This document shows positions 2,101 through 36,282 of a stretch of DNA of 64,000 bases, piece by piece; position 1 is the first letter of the stretch; the number at the start of each line of letters is the position of its first letter. Source of the DNA: Cylindrospermum sp. NIES-4074 (GTDB lineage Bacteria > Cyanobacteriota > Cyanobacteriia > Cyanobacteriales > Nostocaceae); assembly GCA_003994795.1 (NCBI GenBank), contig AP018269.1, forward strand, positions 2,939,484-3,003,483, read 5' to 3'. The translations under genes and the position numbers were made by a program. The notes beneath the pieces were generated by a model that saw only the letters and a program-made list of their open reading frames with translations, did no database searches and had not been told where the DNA came from.

Positions 2101-3807
2101 TTAAAACAAAAAGTATCTTTGTGCCATTGGTAAAACTGTCGCTGGTTCGCAAATTAACAATTCCCCATCTGCCCTCACTTCATAGGTTTCAGGATCAACT
2201 TCAATGTGAGGTAAAGCATCATTAAGCTTCATATCGCGCTTACTAATTTCCCTTGTCCCGGAAACTGCGACGGCTGTTTTTTGTAAACCTAATTGCGTGG
2301 GAATGTCCCTCATCTGAGCCGCTTGAGAAACAAAAGTTAACGATGTAGCGTGACGCGCACCCGCAAAACTGCCAAACATCGGCCGCATATGCACTGGTTG
2401 TGGTGTGGGAATACTCGCATTAGCATCACCCATTTGCGACCAAGCGATCATTCCTCCTTTAATTACTATCTCCGGTTTCACACCAAAAAACGCCGGACGC
2501 CACAAGCACAAATCTGCTAATTTACCCGCTTCGACTGACCCCACATACTGAGAAATTCCATGAGTAATTGCAGGGTTGATAGTGTATTTGGCAACATAAC
2601 GCTTTGCCCGCAAATTATCTGCAAGTCCTTCCCCCACAAGGCTTCCACGCTGTACCTTCATTTTGTGGGCTGTTTGCCAAGTGCGAATTATCACTTCTCC
2701 CACCCTGCCCATTGCTTGGGAATCGGAGGAAATCATGCTAAATGCGCCTAAGTCGTGCAAAATATCTTCTGCGGCGATGGTTTCTCGACGGATACGGGAC
2801 TCAGCAAAGGCAACATCTTCGGGAATTCCGGAATCAAGGTGATGGCATACCATCAACATATCCAGGTGTTCTTCTAAGGTGTTGACGGTGTAAGGACGTG
2901 TGGGATTGGTGGAAGATGGTAAAACGTTGGCTTGGCTGCAAACTTTGATGATATCTGGCGCGTGTCCTCCTCCTGCGCCTTCGGTGTGGTAGGTGTGGAT
3001 GGCGCGATTTTTGAAGGCGGCGATGGTATCTTCCACAAATCCGGCTTCGTTTAAGGTGTCAGTGTGAATTGCTACTTGTATATCATATTCATCAGCAATC
3101 GTGAGGCTAGTATCAATAGTCGCGGGAGTTGTGCCCCAATCTTCATGCAGTTTTAACCCCATTGCCCCGGCTTGCACTTGTTCTATTAGTCCTTGAGGTT
3201 GGCTGGTGTTACCTTTGCCTAAAAATCCTAAGTTGACAGGAAAGGCATCAGCGGCTTGCAGCATTCGGTAAATATTCCAAGGGCCAGGAGTGCAGGTGGT
3301 GGCGTTTGTACCTGTTGCTGGGCCTGTTCCGCCGCCGATCATGGTGGTAATTCCGGAGGCGATCGCCACTTCAATCTGCTGGGGACAAATAAAATGTATA
3401 TGGGAGTCAATACCGCCAGCAGTGAGAATCATTCCTTCCCCAGCTAAAGCTTCGGTTCCAGGGCCAATAATAATATCTACGTTGTCTTGAATATAGGGAT
3501 TTCCGGCTTTGCCAATTTTGTGAATTTTGCCGTCTTTAATCCCGATATCGGCTTTGACGATTCCCCACCAATCGAGAATTAAGGCGTTGGTAATGACTAA
3601 ATCCACGGCACCATCGGCGTTAGAAATGGGGGATTGTCCCATCCCGTCTCTGATGACTTTACCGCCGCCAAATTTCACTTCGTCGCCGTAGGTGGTGAAA
3701 TCTTGTTCAACTTCGATCAATAATTCTGTGTCAGCCAAGCGGATGCGATCGCCTACTGTGGGGCCAAAAGTTTCCGCATAGGCACGGCGATCCATTCTAT
3801 AACTCAT
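2101..3807 (-). CDS. ureC: Urease alpha subunit (catalytic)
   Basis: The 568-residue catalytic subunit hydrolyses urea to ammonia and carbamate in the cytosol. The dinickel site is recognisable: GGIDSHIHF (the two His near residues 137-139), GLKLHEDWG with the carbamylated Lys near residue 219, [10 protein letters not shown], and [12 protein letters not shown]. The mobile flap with its catalytic His is [19 protein letters not shown] (around 320), and the metal-binding Asp is in SSDSQAMGR. It is the last gene of ureD-ureA-ureB-ureC and is separated from ureB by 112 bp that carry a palindromic repeat. The accessory genes ureE, ureF and ureG, needed for nickel insertion, are not in the window. 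Confidence 0.98.
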
Positions 3808-32828: not shown

Positions 32829-32963
32829 GTAGCGGATAGCTCAAGCGCTAGAGCGCCCACCTTGCCTGCAAAGGCCGACATATTGAGGGTTATCATATAC
32901 AACTTAAACGCCCTTAATTCCACTTCCGGAGGTGCAGGCAAAAATCCTGCTCCGCTACATCCA
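32829..32963 (+). ncRNA. tRNA-like Y RNA (YrlA-like) no. 1
   Basis: An 8-bp acceptor-like stem, GTAGCGGA with TCCGCTAC, closes the molecule. It is followed by TA and a D arm, GCTCAAGCGCTAGAGC; the T arm is GCAGG-CAAAAAT-CCTGC (T loop atypical). In place of the anticodon arm is CTTGCCTGCAAAGGCCGAC (32861-32879), the proposed Ro60 site with a GCAA tetraloop. This copy differs from the others. The partner of ATTGAGGG is CCCTTAAT downstream of the motif, not upstream, so the arm is arranged differently. It may be an ancestral or decayed member. The 3' end reads ACATCCA, not a clean CCA. Confidence 0.72.
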
Positions 32964-32999
32964 ACCTAATTTTGTATTTTTCAACCTTTAAATTTTCAT

Positions 33000-33128
33000 G
33001 TGGCGGGTAGCTCAGTGGCAGAGCGCTAAAAACATCCTTATTCACCCCTTGCCTGCAAAGGCCGACGAATTGAGGGTTATCGATTGGGTTCGAGAGGTCG
33101 CGGGTTCAATTCCCGCCCCGCTACACCA
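33000..33128 (+). ncRNA. tRNA-like Y RNA (YrlA-like) no. 2, Gly-type body
   Basis: The acceptor stem GTGGCGGG pairs with CCCGCTAC (8 bp, one G-U) and is followed by an encoded ACCA. The D arm is GCTCAGTGGCAGAGC and the T arm is canonical, GCGGG-TTCAATT-CCCGC. The D arm and general form resemble tRNA-Gly. No anticodon stem can be formed. Instead CCTTATTC (near 33036) pairs with GAATTGAGG around the proposed Ro60 site, CTTGCCTGCAAAGGCCGAC (33048-33066). GGTTATCG follows, as in the other copies. Confidence 0.82.
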
Positions 33129-33155
33129 AACTTAATTTTGAATTGTAATATTTCT

Positions 33156-33296
33156 GCGGGGATAGCTCAGTTTGGTAGAGCAGTAAAAGGGGTAAAACCC
33201 ATAGTCCTTAGTTTACAAACTTGCCTGAAAAGGCCGACTAATTGAGGGTTATCGTTAATTTATTGGTCGCAGGTTCAAATCCTGCTCTCCGCACCA
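33156..33296 (+). ncRNA. tRNA-like Y RNA (YrlA-like) no. 3
   Basis: This is the most tRNA-like copy at its ends: acceptor GCGGGGA with TCTCCGC, discriminator A and encoded CCA; D arm GCTCAGTTTGGTAGAGC; T arm GCAGG-TTCAAAT-CCTGC. The anticodon position has TAAA/TTTA, an extra small hairpin (GGGGTAAAACCC) and then CCTTAGTT pairing with AATTGAGG around CTTGCCTGAAAAGGCCGAC (33220-33238). The loop is GAAA. A tRNA finder may call this a tRNA with an odd insert; no anticodon is readable. Confidence 0.82.
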
Positions 33297-33318
33297 AACC
33301 TAAATTTTCAATTTTCTT

Positions 33319-33478
33319 GTAGTGGGTGGCGAAATTGGTAAACGCACTAGAATAAAACACCTTGATTAACTCTTGCCTGCAAAGGCCGACAAATTGAGGT
33401 TTATCGGGATCTGGCGACGAAAGTCTTGCAGGTATGCCTCCGGCACGCTACGCGAACAATTCCTGCCTCACTACACCA
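33319..33478 (+). ncRNA. tRNA-like Y RNA (YrlA-like) no. 4, Leu-type body, T loop interrupted
   Basis: The acceptor GTAGTGGG pairs with CTCACTAC (one G-U) followed by ACCA. The D arm TGGCGAAATTGGTAAACGCA is that of tRNA-Leu, and GAC-GAAA-GTC just before the T arm looks like a class II variable arm. CCTTGATT pairs with AATTGAGG around the proposed Ro60 site CTTGCCTGCAAAGGCCGAC (33372-33390). The T stem GCAGG/CCTGC is intact, but its loop is 29 nt long because a palindromic element entered it (33433-33461). Confidence 0.8.
33433..33461 (+). repeat. Palindromic element in the T loop of RNA no. 4
   Basis: The loop carries TGCCTCCGGCACGCTACGCG, about 22 nt more than a normal T loop. GCCTCCGGC folds on itself, and this family (CTCCGGCACGCTACGCGAAC) is dispersed in Nostocales genomes. 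The same sequence sits at the same place in RNA no. 5. Confidence 0.85.
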
Positions 33479-33506
33479 AACCTAATTTTCAATTTTGAAT
33501 TTTCAT

Positions 33507-33654
33507 GTGGCAGGTAGCTCAGTGGTAGAGCGCCTAAAACATCCTTATTCATACCTTGCCTGAAAAGGCCGACGAATGAGGGTTATCGCCTAGTACGCGG
33601 GATGTCGCAGGTATGCCTCCGGCACGCTACGCGAACAATTCCTGCTCTGCCACC
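33507..33654 (+). ncRNA. tRNA-like Y RNA (YrlA-like) no. 5, Gly-type body, T loop interrupted
   Basis: The acceptor GTGGCAGG pairs with TCTGCCAC; the D arm GCTCAGTGGTAGAGC is identical in type to tRNA-Gly. CCTTATTC pairs perfectly with GAATGAGG (one T less than in no. 2 on the 3' strand, which restores a perfect helix) around CTTGCCTGAAAAGGCCGAC (33555-33573, GAAA loop). The T stem GCAGG/CCTGC holds the same inserted palindrome as no. 4 (33612-33640). No CCA is encoded; the 3' end runs into the leader of the Ro60 gene. Confidence 0.8.
33612..33640 (+). repeat. Palindromic element in the T loop of RNA no. 5
   Basis: The sequence and position are identical to 33433-33461, so RNAs 4 and 5 either share a duplication after the insertion or exchanged their 3' halves by recombination. 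Confidence 0.85.
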
Positions 33655-33660
33655 TTTCAC

Positions 33661-33683
33661 TTTGCCCGTAAGGGCCGGGAGAT
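33661..33683 (+). promoter_or_regulatory. Ro60-site-like hairpin in the leader of the Ro60 gene
   Basis: TTTGCCCGTAAGGGCCGGGA lies directly before the start codon. It forms GCCC-GTAA-GGGC with a GNRA loop and then CGG, closely echoing CTTGCCT-GNRA-AGGCCGA of the tRNA-like RNAs. GGGAG inside it is the probable Shine-Dalgarno sequence (ATG at 33690). Ro60 binding here could block its own translation. Seen: the hairpin. Inferred: the regulation. Confidence 0.5.
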
Positions 33684-33689
33684 GAAACC

Positions 33690-35291
33690 ATGAACTACAA
33701 TTTCTTTACCCGAAACAAAAACAGCACACCACAAAATCAGCCTATCCCCGGAAGAGAAGCAGAAATGATTAAAGGCCGTTCCGGCGGCTTTATGTTTGAC
33801 GCTGGTATTTGGCAGATGTTGCGCCGTTGTCTGTTAATTGGCACAGCAAAAAGCACTTACTATGCAGGTAAACAGGAATTAACAGAAGATTTTGTGGCAG
33901 TTGTTAACCAAGCTGTGGCTGAAAATCCCGGTCGTGTGGCAAAAGAAATTCTCTATGCTAGTGATGGCCGCGCCATTAACAACAGCGCACCTATCCTCGC
34001 TTTAGTGCTGCTGTCGATGGGTGAAACACCAGAAGCTAAAAAGGCATTCGGTGAAATCTTCCCCCAAGTTATCCGCACAGGTAGCCACTTCTACGAATGG
34101 TTGAACTACACCAAATCTCTGCGGGGTTTTGGTAAAGTCGTGCGGGAAGCTGGTAAAACTTGGCTATCGCGGGAAGATGTCAAAGGTTTAGCTTATCAGT
34201 TGTTGAAATATCAACAGCGTCAAGGCTTCACTCACCGAGATGCTTTGCGGTTGTTCCACGTTAACCCACCTACAGAAAATCACCGTCAATTATTTGAGTG
34301 GGTAGTCAAAGGCTGGGAAGATTTGCCAGCAGACATCCCCTCAGATGCTTTGGCGCAGATTTGGTGGTATGAGTGGCTGAAGCGCAACCCCACCCAAACC
34401 CATGAAGCCATTTCTCAAGGACGCTTAAGCCATGAAATGGCTGCACCTGTGGGCAAAATGGATAAGCAAGCTTGGCAGCTGCTATTTCAGGAAATGCCAA
34501 TCGGTGCAATGCTGCGTAACTTGGGTTCTTTGACTCAGTTGCAGGTGTTGCGAGCTGATGAAGGCGCTAATTTGCAGCGAGTAAAAGCAGTTCTCAACAA
34601 TTTGGAACATCTGCGTAAAGGACGCATCCATCCAATTGATGTTTTGAAAGCACTCAAAACCTATCAATCTGGGGGAGCATTAGGACGCAGCCAGAAGACT
34701 TGGAACCCAGTTCCCCGCATTGTGGACATTTTGGAAAAAGCGGTGGAAATGTCTTTTGAAGTAGTGCAACCCACTGGTAAGGTGTTCATGCACGCGGTTG
34801 ACATTTCTGGTTCTATGGGTAGTCCGGTTGCGGATATGGGACTGACTTGTTGTGAAATCGCCACCACAATGGCACTGGTGACAGCAAAGGCAGAGAAAAA
34901 CTACGCAATTCGCGGCTTTTCTACTAAGTTTAAAGACTTGGATATTACCGCCAAAGATAGTTTTAGTTCTGCGGTTCGCAAAGCCAGTAACCAAAATTTT
35001 GGCGGAACTGACGCTTCTGTGGCTTATGACTGGATGATTCAGCAAAAGTTTAAAGCAGATGTAGTTTGCTTTTGGACTGACTCGGAAAGCTGGGCCGGGA
35101 ATAAGCATCCAAGTCAAGCGCTGAAGGAGTACCGCAAAAAGGTAAATCCCAATGTTAAGGCAGTGTATATCAGTCTTGCACCTTACCAGATTACCTTGGT
35201 AGATCCTAAAGATCCGCTGTCTTGGGATTTCGGAGGATTTGATCCGGGTATGCCGCGCATCATTCAGATGCTAGCAAATGGTGAATTATAA
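33690..35291 (+). CDS. rsr: Ro60/Rsr: TROVE-domain RNA-binding ring protein with vWA domain
   Basis: The 533-residue orthologue of the Ro60 autoantigen has an N-terminal TROVE domain (about 25-360), a ring of helical repeats: GFMFDAGIWQMLRRCLLIG, TAKSTYYAGKQELTEDF and HFYEWLNYTKSLRGFGKVVR. The C-terminal von Willebrand A domain (about 365-533) has a complete metal site, DISGSMGSP, with the later Thr (FGGTDAS) and Asp (FWTDSES). Ro60 binds misfolded RNA 3' ends through its cavity and Y RNAs on its outside; in Deinococcus and Salmonella, Rsr acts with exoribonucleases. Here it sits among six Y RNA-like genes on the same strand, which supports an RNP with them. No ligase (RtcB) or exonuclease gene is adjacent. 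Confidence 0.93.
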   Translation: MNYNFFTRNKNSTPQNQPIPGREAEMIKGRSGGFMFDAGIWQMLRRCLLIGTAKSTYYAGKQELTEDFVAVVNQAVAENPGRVAKEILYASDGRAINNSAPILALVLLSMGETPEAKKAFGEIFPQVIRTGSHFYEWLNYTKSLRGFGKVVREAGKTWLSREDVKGLAYQLLKYQQRQGFTHRDALRLFHVNPPTENHRQLFEWVVKGWEDLPADIPSDALAQIWWYEWLKRNPTQTHEAISQGRLSHEMAAPVGKMDKQAWQLLFQEMPIGAMLRNLGSLTQLQVLRADEGANLQRVKAVLNNLEHLRKGRIHPIDVLKALKTYQSGGALGRSQKTWNPVPRIVDILEKAVEMSFEVVQPTGKVFMHAVDISGSMGSPVADMGLTCCEIATTMALVTAKAEKNYAIRGFSTKFKDLDITAKDSFSSAVRKASNQNFGGTDASVAYDWMIQQKFKADVVCFWTDSESWAGNKHPSQALKEYRKKVNPNVKAVYISLAPYQITLVDPKDPLSWDFGGFDPGMPRIIQMLANGEL

Positions 35292-35348
35292 GTTTCGCTG
35301 TAGATTGTAGGATGAGGGATAAATGCAAGTTTATCCTTTATCTTTCCT

Positions 35349-35461
35349 GGCGGGTTAATCCCTTGTTCGTAACTTGCCTTTCGGGGCCGAAGAATATAGG
35401 GTTATCGGATAACGTCTCCACCATATTTGGGGATTAGCGGGTTCAAATCCCGTACCCGCCA
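35349..35461 (+). ncRNA. tRNA-like Y RNA (YrlA-like) no. 6, downstream of Ro60
   Basis: The acceptor GGCGGGT pairs perfectly with ACCCGCC, discriminator A; the T arm is GCGGG-TTCAAAT-CCCGT. A good D arm cannot be drawn. The Ro60 site is CTTGCCTTTCGGGGCCGAA (35373-35391), where the GNRA loop is replaced by UUCG, another ultra-stable tetraloop. GTTATCGG follows as in the other copies. CCCTTGTTC and GAATATAGGG can form the flanking helix with an internal loop. Seven T residues directly follow position 35461, suggesting transcription ends there. No CCA is encoded. Confidence 0.82.
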
Positions 35462-35530: not shown

Positions 35531-35950
35531 ATGTCAGCAAAAGATAGATTTCACGATGCAGTAAAAACAGCCCTCAAAAAAGATGGATGGGTGATTACGG
35601 ACGACCCCCTACACATTGCAGTAGACCGCATCACCAATATGTTTATTGATTTAGCTGCTGAGAAAATGATTGTGGCAAATCGAGATAATCAAAAGATTGC
35701 GGTTGAAGTCAAAAGTTTTTTAAGTCCCTCGACTATATCAGATTTTCACACTGCGATAGGGCAATTTATTAATTATCGCTATGCTTTAACAGATTATGAA
35801 CCTGAGCGTGTTTTATATTTAGCTGTACCAGTGACAATCTATGAAGAATTTTTCACTACACCATTTATTAAGTCAGTAATTCAACGCAGTCAAATCAATC
35901 TACTCATTTTTAATCCAGCAACAGAGGAGATTGTGCAATGGCAAAATTAG
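35531..35950 (+). CDS. xisH: XisH-family protein
   Basis: In this 139-residue protein the signature is MSAKDRFHDAVKTALKKDGW, then ITDDPL, and the nuclease-like core IDLAAEKMIVANRDNQKIAVEVKSF, which has the E-x-K pattern of PD-(D/E)XK enzymes, followed by DFHTAIGQFINYR. XisH was named as a factor needed, with XisI, for excision of the fdxN element in Anabaena heterocysts, but most genomic copies lie away from such elements. Overlaps xisI by 13 bp. Confidence 0.93.
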   Translation: MSAKDRFHDAVKTALKKDGWVITDDPLHIAVDRITNMFIDLAAEKMIVANRDNQKIAVEVKSFLSPSTISDFHTAIGQFINYRYALTDYEPERVLYLAVPVTIYEEFFTTPFIKSVIQRSQINLLIFNPATEEIVQWQN

Positions 35951-36282
35951 AAGAATATCGGGAATATGTTCAGCGTGTCTTAACAGATTATGCTCAACGC
36001 AGAACATCCCACAATCAGGATGATGAATTGGAAATGCAAACCATTTTTGATCCGGTGCATGACCATTATCAGCTAATCTATGTTGGCTGGGATAAGGGAA
36101 AGCGGGTTTATGGGCCTGTAATACATCTAGATATTAAGAATGGCAAGATTTGGATTCAGTGGAATGGTACGGAAGATGATATCGCTGCTGATTTAATGGC
36201 GTTGGGTGTGTCTAAACAAGATATTGTGCTAGGATTTCATACGCCTTATATGCGTCAGTTTACAGATTTTGCGGTGGGGTAG
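35938..36282 (+). CDS. xisI: XisI-family protein
   Basis: In this 114-residue protein MAKLEEYREYVQRVLTDYA, then FDPVHDHYQLIYVGWD, then VYGPVIHLDIKNGKIWIQWN, then LGFHTPYMRQFTDFA is the complete XisI pattern. It is translated from within the last codons of xisH, so the two are probably made in fixed ratio and form a complex. No xisF recombinase or element boundary is visible nearby. Confidence 0.93.
   Translation: MAKLEEYREYVQRVLTDYAQRRTSHNQDDELEMQTIFDPVHDHYQLIYVGWDKGKRVYGPVIHLDIKNGKIWIQWNGTEDDIAADLMALGVSKQDIVLGFHTPYMRQFTDFAVG

Follow-up and report, generated by a model that had tools for sequence, protein, structure and literature searches.

In the cyanobacterium Cylindrospermum sp. NIES-4074, the Ro60/Rsr gene is embedded in an array of six small RNA units which are best explained as Y RNAs built on the bodies of transfer RNAs (tRNAs). 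The array is located in a 64,000-nucleotide stretch of the 7.7-Mb host genome (contig AP018269.1, positions 2,939,484 to 3,003,483; hereafter "the window", from whose first letter all positions are counted), where five RNA units directly precede the Ro60 gene (33690..35291) and one follows it, with all six units and the gene on the plus strand. Comparative alignments show a predicted architecture in which the acceptor, D and T arms of a tRNA are combined with a two-helix Ro60-type stem (the Y arm) grafted at the place of the anticodon loop. Taken together, we consider it probable that these are Y RNAs with open tRNA-like ends, the upstream ones made as a leader and released by tRNA-type processing, belonging to an autoregulated Ro60 system of stress-induced RNA surveillance. 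A first-pass annotation of the letters alone had proposed tRNA-mimicking Y RNAs without an anticodon arm, citing the known YrlA; this interpretation is partly supported. The Y RNAs on tRNA bodies stand, the topology differs from the permuted one of YrlA, and the loss of the anticodon arm is not absolute.

The protein encoded at 33690..35291 (+; 533 amino acids) combines the TROVE ring and the vWA domain of Ro60/Rsr proteins (Pfam vWA_Ro60, 1.2e-37, and TROVE, 3.9e-16), with the PDB relatives 2nvo (Rsr, 3.1e-71) and 1yvp (Xenopus Ro, 1.4e-68); its closest named relative in the 80 retained loci is that of Anabaena catenula FACHB-362 (91%). The five units before and the one after this genuine Ro60 gene were all recovered, as had been proposed, by R1, a covariance model of class A units built from 37 training rows including window copies 2 and 3, with copy 1 matching at a tRNA-like level and backed by a separate alignment. 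The linkers between the units carry a common A+T-rich motif, as judged by eye and in agreement with the first-pass annotation, and ARAGORN reported 0 tRNA genes in the window.

Copy 1 (class B; 32829..32959, +; R1 match 32829-32958, 34.5 bits) has an 8-pair acceptor, a D arm, a T arm with a degenerate loop and A73, with CCA not encoded, and the outer helix of its Y arm is re-ordered (CTTGCC-loop-GGCCGA...GAGGG...CCCTTAATT). Since its R1 score is no better than that of ordinary tRNA genes, which reach ~41 bits, its assignment rests on the class B alignment. Copy 2 (class A; 33000..33128, +; R1 match 33000-33124, 118.8 bits as a training row) comprises an 8-pair acceptor with G3.U70, D and T arms, A73 and an encoded CCA, which together form the alanine identity set, and has its anticodon loop replaced by the Y arm; it alone folds freely, by minimum free energy, into the full predicted shape (-44.5 kcal/mol). 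Copy 3 (class A; 33156..33296, +; R1 match 33155-33293, 87.3 bits, likewise a training row) has a 7-pair acceptor, a D arm, an anticodon-stem remnant (GTAAA/TTTAT), the Y arm, a T arm, A73 and an encoded CCA. Copy 4 (class A; 33319..33478, +; R1 match 33319-33474, 63.3 bits) is distinguished by a Leu-type D arm and a long variable region, again with A73 and an encoded CCA. Copy 5 (33507..33654, +; R1 match 33507-33653, 107.3 bits) is Z-like by its place as the last unit before Ro60 and by its acceptor (GTGGCAGG/TCTGCCAC, then C after the stem, CCA being absent), an assignment made by eye because the parser scored it "a" rather than "Z" owing to a T-loop insert. Copy 6 (class C; 35349..35461, +; R1 match 35348-35461, 53.1 bits) consists of an acceptor, a Y arm, an extra hairpin and a T arm, and 7 consecutive T come after it. 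The arms thus largely agree with those first described, including the missing D arm of copy 6, except for the T loop of copy 1.

As for the tRNA types which the bodies were said to imitate, out of 68 host tRNA D regions, those six that are closest to the D region of copy 4 are all Leu, in line with the earlier proposal; for copies 2 and 5, the nearest are Gly and Asn, so that "Gly-type" is weakly supported, and this nearest-isotype test, made with an incomplete host tRNA list (no tRNA-His), is informative for Leu only. The T loops of copies 4 and 5 each contain a 27-base-pair dispersed repeat (33431..33457 and 33610..33636, both +; G000:C1:2972914-2972940 and G000:C1:2973093-2973119), found at 38 places in the host genome with up to 1 mismatch. 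The same repeat also lies within a tRNA match elsewhere in the host (L241, G000:C1:4207816-4207911), and a different insert was seen in the T loop of a unit at locus L034; T loops may be favoured landing sites for inserts.

Across the family, a class A unit is composed of an acceptor stem of 7-8 pairs, U8-A9, a D arm, the Y arm, a variable region and a T arm, the Y arm itself being built of two helices, the outer one formed by CCTTATTC and GAATTGAGGG and the inner one reading CTTGCC-loop-GGCCGA. RNAalifold, run on a MAFFT alignment, recovered the class A helices unprompted, and the same holds for class B. In the class A alignment (37 rows: 2 window copies plus 35 of 49 non-redundant units), 96.1% of cells are paired and 22 of 28 pairs show two-sided changes, with a covariation of 0.604 versus 0.262 in shuffled and 0.10-0.16 in slid alignments; in class B (19 rows), 97.4% are paired, 16 of 29 pairs change on both sides, and covariation is 0.388 versus 0.208. 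The cleanest part is the outer Y helix, because the parser that chose the units did not select for it: in class A it has 8 pairs, 4 with two-sided change, and is 94.3% paired. Class B, usually the first copy, uses the same strands with the outer 5' strand moved behind the Y arm; class C, downstream of Ro60, has an extra hairpin and no D arm (RNAalifold on 16 of 26 units). With its near-invariant strand and covarying helices, the Y arm has the conserved Ro60-type stem expected of a Y RNA.

The pairing of each Y arm with its own acceptor was examined on 189 arms found by motif in 60 loci, 152 of them with a T arm: an acceptor matching at 7 of 7 positions is present in 126 of 151, versus 19% when upstream sequence of other loci is used. 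Position-wise scans were employed, as the "best match" mode of the motif search skipped copies and under-counted; 90 minus-strand and many low-scoring plus-strand matches of the loose motif were taken as chance. Units used had a score of at least 26, lay within -2500..+700 of Ro60 and had a D arm (194 of 330 plus-strand matches).

With regard to the anticodon arm, positions 27-31/39-43 pair above shuffled partners in 60 non-redundant class A units (55.7% vs 40.5%, z 6.9), at an offset that is the best of 48 tried and also the one expected for tRNA; 4-5 remnant pairs occur in 12 of the 60 units, 3 in 26 and fewer in 22. Therefore, the Y stem sits on an anticodon-stem remnant, and it is the anticodon loop that is lost. 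The statement that no anticodon arm exists was accordingly right about the loop, which the Y arm replaces, and too strong about the stem. Such a remnant, detectable family-wide, is also what would be seen if these were tRNA genes whose anticodon loop holds an intron-like insert that is spliced out to give working tRNAs, and copy 3, the only copy to reach the Rfam tRNA cut-off (RF00005, 50.9 bits), does so with a 71-nucleotide insertion at that loop. However, the insert contains the most conserved stretches of the unit, class A retains no anticodon loop, in many copies the anticodon stem is incomplete or A73 or CCA is missing, and the family occurs only with Ro60 in the genomes searched, which makes splicing to functional tRNAs extremely unlikely. 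Separately, three units downstream of Ro60 at other loci (L046:2539-2677, L050:3794-3933 and L054:5931-6067) resemble tRNA-Leu(CAA) by eye; in these units, the D loop carries the Y arm, and an anticodon arm is kept, with a 7-base loop and CAA at the anticodon place.

The family adjoins Ro60 across the cyanobacterial order, where Rfam covers it only as stray tRNA matches. Among 291 genomes of the order, a Ro60 match was found in 72 and R1 at E<=3e-11 in 68, all of them among the 72; 28 of these 68 genomes had supplied R1 training rows and 40 none. Only this threshold was counted, since R1 matches between 1e-9 and 1e-6 occur in every genome and, where checked, overlap ordinary tRNA genes. None of the 219 genomes lacking Ro60 has an R1 match below 9.3e-10 (hand count), and the four Ro60 genomes without an R1 match of the counted strength contain Ro60 fragments (G094, G042, G160) or a divergent Ro60 (G246). 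In genus g51, to which the fragments of G042 and G160 belong, G084 has the strongest R1 match of a Ro60-less genome (9.3e-10), a pattern which possibly reflects decay of the entire system. When 244 genomes were drawn from the phylum at large, with 20 positives common to this and the former set, the RNA (E<=1e-10) was found in 23 and Ro60 in 30, all 23 within the 30. The units thus stand beside Ro60 and co-occur with it, as Y RNAs do, with one neighbourhood exception (G162). Over 81 loci, the copy order includes B in 37, Z in 54 and a downstream copy in 51, and copy number varies widely among relatives, up to 11. The array is also present in a strain used in the laboratory, on plasmid pAQ7 of Picosynechococcus sp. 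PCC 7002. For the loci numbered L106-L189, R1 was run on 70 of 84.

The stem of the Y RNA YrlA is formed by its two ends, and its tRNA-like domain is modified by DusA and TruB (PMC8394870); YrlA is described as superposing on tRNA via circular permutation (PMC11472068). The array could also be read as ordinary permuted YrlA, each unit running from a Y stem through a T arm and a linker to the D arm of the next copy, as in Salmonella. Weak Rfam YrlA alignments do bridge neighbouring copies, both in the window (33073-33211, 31.8 bits) and in PCC 7002 (31.0 bits), and permuted YrlA-type genes exist in the phylum, namely in G324 (locus L256, 38.4 bits) and, as judged by eye, in G246 (L102), a relative from the Nostocaceae. 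Against this, acceptor ends form both borders of the array; only the open reading gives complete units for copy 6 and for single-copy loci; and acceptor strands match at 7 of 7 positions in 125 of 128 cases within the unit versus 40 of 128 with the next unit, the former figure being favoured by the parser. YrlA scores are far under the cut-off of 69 bits, and the Infernal searches suggested by the first-pass annotation gave 0 YrlA matches at this cut-off in the window and 15 loci, with the tRNA model passing for copy 3. This missed cut-off is weak evidence, since permuted-looking YrlA-type genes of a Gordonia phage (L188, 42.2 bits) and a Bosea plasmid (L189, 36.7 bits) also miss it; the Ro60 locus of phage Myrna gave no YrlA match at E<=0.05. 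A YrlA would have its ends in the Ro60 stem and a permuted tRNA domain, while the acceptor here is open and covariation lies within the unit, so the permuted alternative is very improbable. The tRNA-bodied, Ro60-associated part of the YrlA comparison holds, including tRNA-like D and T arms (class C lacking the D arm), and the topology is open-ended.

Both forms meet at L256 (G324:C179:9000-17500), where Ro60 lies beside an array with 22 tRNA matches, with open-ended Y RNAs (1298-1420 and 2131-2256) inside the tRNA array and a permuted YrlA (3420-3521) by Ro60. At L102 (G246:C31:40954-50504), a divergent Ro60 (33% identical) is enclosed by an array with 21 tRNA matches and shares its strand, with permuted YrlA-type RNAs just upstream of it by eye and no Rfam YrlA match at the cut-off. 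Furthermore, G322 and G306 contain plain Y-RNA-like hairpins with the same core as the Y arms (by eye); those of G322 score 37.4 and 31.3 bits with the stem-bulge model RF01656 (cut-off 38), and a T-arm-like piece lies beside them, again by eye. On one reading, the Y stem was acquired by tRNA genes that stood in arrays.

G3.U70 together with A73 is established to specify alanine without an anticodon. The 373 parsed units in 137 loci count some genomes twice, and the 160 non-redundant ones were used for this reason; window copies 4 and 5, which are below the parser threshold, are not included in the 373. The number of 8-pair acceptors (339 of 373) is too high, since a T preceding the stem can be counted as a partner of A73, as happened for copy 3. 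G.U at 3:70 occurs in 20 of 40 non-redundant 8-pair non-Z units with encoded A73-CCA versus 6 of 81 without A73-CCA; in the same 40 units, G.U is found at pairs 1, 2, 4, 5, 6 and 7 in 0, 0, 2, 1, 1 and 2 cases, and at pair 8 in 17. The link between G3.U70 and A73-CCA holds in classes A and B separately, and also within loci (39 vs 1, 15 ties). Encoded CCA on its own is seen in 72 of 194 units versus 7 of 68 host tRNAs. The subset with G3.U70, A73 and a CCA end, to which copy 2 alone of the six window copies belongs, is plausibly a candidate substrate of alanyl-tRNA synthetase, with the reservation that the 8-pair acceptor could prevent charging; the Z copies (G3-C70) and the class C copy of the window would not be substrates.

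A second feature concerns the Ro60 gene itself, whose leader contains a hairpin (TTTGCCC-GTAA-GGGCCGGGAG; 33661..33681, +) similar to the inner Y-arm helix and overlapping the Shine-Dalgarno-like GGGAG (in the family, a GGGAG/GGAGG ribosome-binding stretch). With 18 loci without a recognised start excluded beforehand, a TTGCC-loop-GGCYG-type hairpin ending 8-19 bases before the start codon was found in 121 of 135 leaders (44 of 52 non-redundant), versus 209 of 38832 random windows from the same loci; of the 14 missing leaders, 12 have a variant by eye. In the alignment of 44 leaders, whose rows were picked for having the hairpin, the fourth pair, which lies outside the selection, is standard in all 44 rows and has changed on both sides in 17. 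The overlap of a Y-arm-like hairpin with the ribosome-binding site suggests autoregulation of Ro60. The hairpin is short (~4 pairs) and its likeness to the inner Y helix is based on ~10 bases, so that an ordinary initiation-region hairpin with no Ro60 site is a serious possibility, if not the one we favour; on the other side stands the shared core, the same in these 121 leaders as in Y arms and in the plain hairpins of G322 (GGGCCGGAG...TTTTGCCC).

On the preferred explanation, i.e., Y RNAs with open tRNA-like ends, the five upstream copies would be co-transcribed in the leader of Ro60 and released by tRNA-processing enzymes that cleave at the acceptor ends, and the copy 6 transcript would end near its own T-run. 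Ro60 would hold the Y stem while the tRNA body faces the tRNA-handling machinery, each particle thus presenting one tRNA-like "face" from a set of several; when Y RNA runs low, free Ro60 may bind the leader hairpin and reduce the translation of its own gene. Overall, the particle is probably one of RNA surveillance, induced by stress and tuned to the state of tRNA or translation. Erythromycin strongly increases the transcript of a TROVE gene in Chlorogloeopsis fritschii PCC 9212 (PMC6424891); the array is present in another strain of this species, PCC 6912 (L155), and we infer that the two Ro60 genes correspond. In Salmonella, an rsr-Y RNA-RNA repair operon responds to damaged tRNAs (PMC7790460).

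Several observations weigh against this explanation. In G162, the Y RNA array lies on contig C30 and Ro60 on C42 (L073), the latter locus being without an array. The parser which chose the units required acceptor, D and T pairing plus part of the inner Y helix, whereby these helices are favoured. Copies 4 and 5 fail to reach the tRNA shape in free folding, and therefore the repeat inserts may disable both. Promoter-like sites are not in excess (3 vs 5.4 in shuffles), and a terminator scan flagged none on the plus strand, the T-run after copy 6 included. As to the alanine signal, the link is weaker under strict redundancy removal (0.75 similarity, 44 units: 5/7 vs 8/37, p 0.017), and the last acceptor pair, too, is often G.U (35 of 121); therefore, descent contributes.

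The variety of tRNA bodies could, moreover, be neutral drift after tandem duplication, all copies having one job and the body serving processing or stability. The highly variable copy number, the mostly generic D and T arms, and the repeat inserts in two window copies are in favour of it, and we hold it to be a tenable, if minority, explanation. A bolder version of the preferred explanation appears unlikely: open-ended tRNA-Y RNA chimeras, a subset alanine-charged via G3.U70, would form Ro60 particles that read or use aminoacylation, as a tmRNA-like branch of the Y RNAs, with the Ro60 level set by the look-alike hairpin at its own start site. The alanine signal and the leader hairpin are the most testable surprises. 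Because the ends are free and tRNA-like and the set keeps a conserved order, direct tests are possible of how the RNAs are processed, whether they receive CCA and are charged, and whether they depend on Ro60.

Elsewhere in the window, XisH and XisI genes lie downstream of the array (35531-36282), and an Rfam 5_ureB_sRNA match is located at 3366-3653 (101.6 bits).

As regards known systems, Chen 2014 is reportedly a broad survey of bacterial Y RNAs; our literature search, covering titles and the beginnings of abstracts, found no paper describing the cyanobacterial open-ended forms, and an earlier description is possible. Transfer-messenger RNA (tmRNA) has its alanine identity via G3.U70. The array units share with it the character of a tRNA-like RNA without an anticodon, and have a Ro60-type stem instead of a tagging frame, for which no search was made; no homology is claimed. 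The Y RNA of Deinococcus radiodurans is likewise a partner of Ro60 and possibly tethers it to an RNA enzyme in RYPER (Rsr-Y RNA-PNPase; PMC8058203 and PMC4726728), while the cyanobacterial form is an array of tRNA-bodied RNAs. The RF01656 consensus (nematode stem-bulge RNAs) likewise has a CCGRAG strand and GGGUUAUC, and UUAUC is common to stem-bulge and vertebrate Y RNAs according to the review PMC4726728, which also holds that bacterial Y RNAs are not homologous with the vertebrate clades. Unlike the cyanobacterial units, vertebrate Y RNAs and stem-bulge RNAs have no tRNA body and another linear order. YrlA (RF02553; PDB 6CU1) resembles the array in standing beside Ro60/Rsr, in its T, D and acceptor-like arms and in having a Ro60-type stem for the anticodon arm. 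However, the ends of YrlA are paired in the Ro60 stem, with the acceptor closed by a loop at L188, whereas the array units have an open acceptor and a Ro60 stem capped by a short loop; the co-existence of permuted and open forms in one genome (L256) provides a natural pair for tracing the relations between tRNA genes and Y RNAs.

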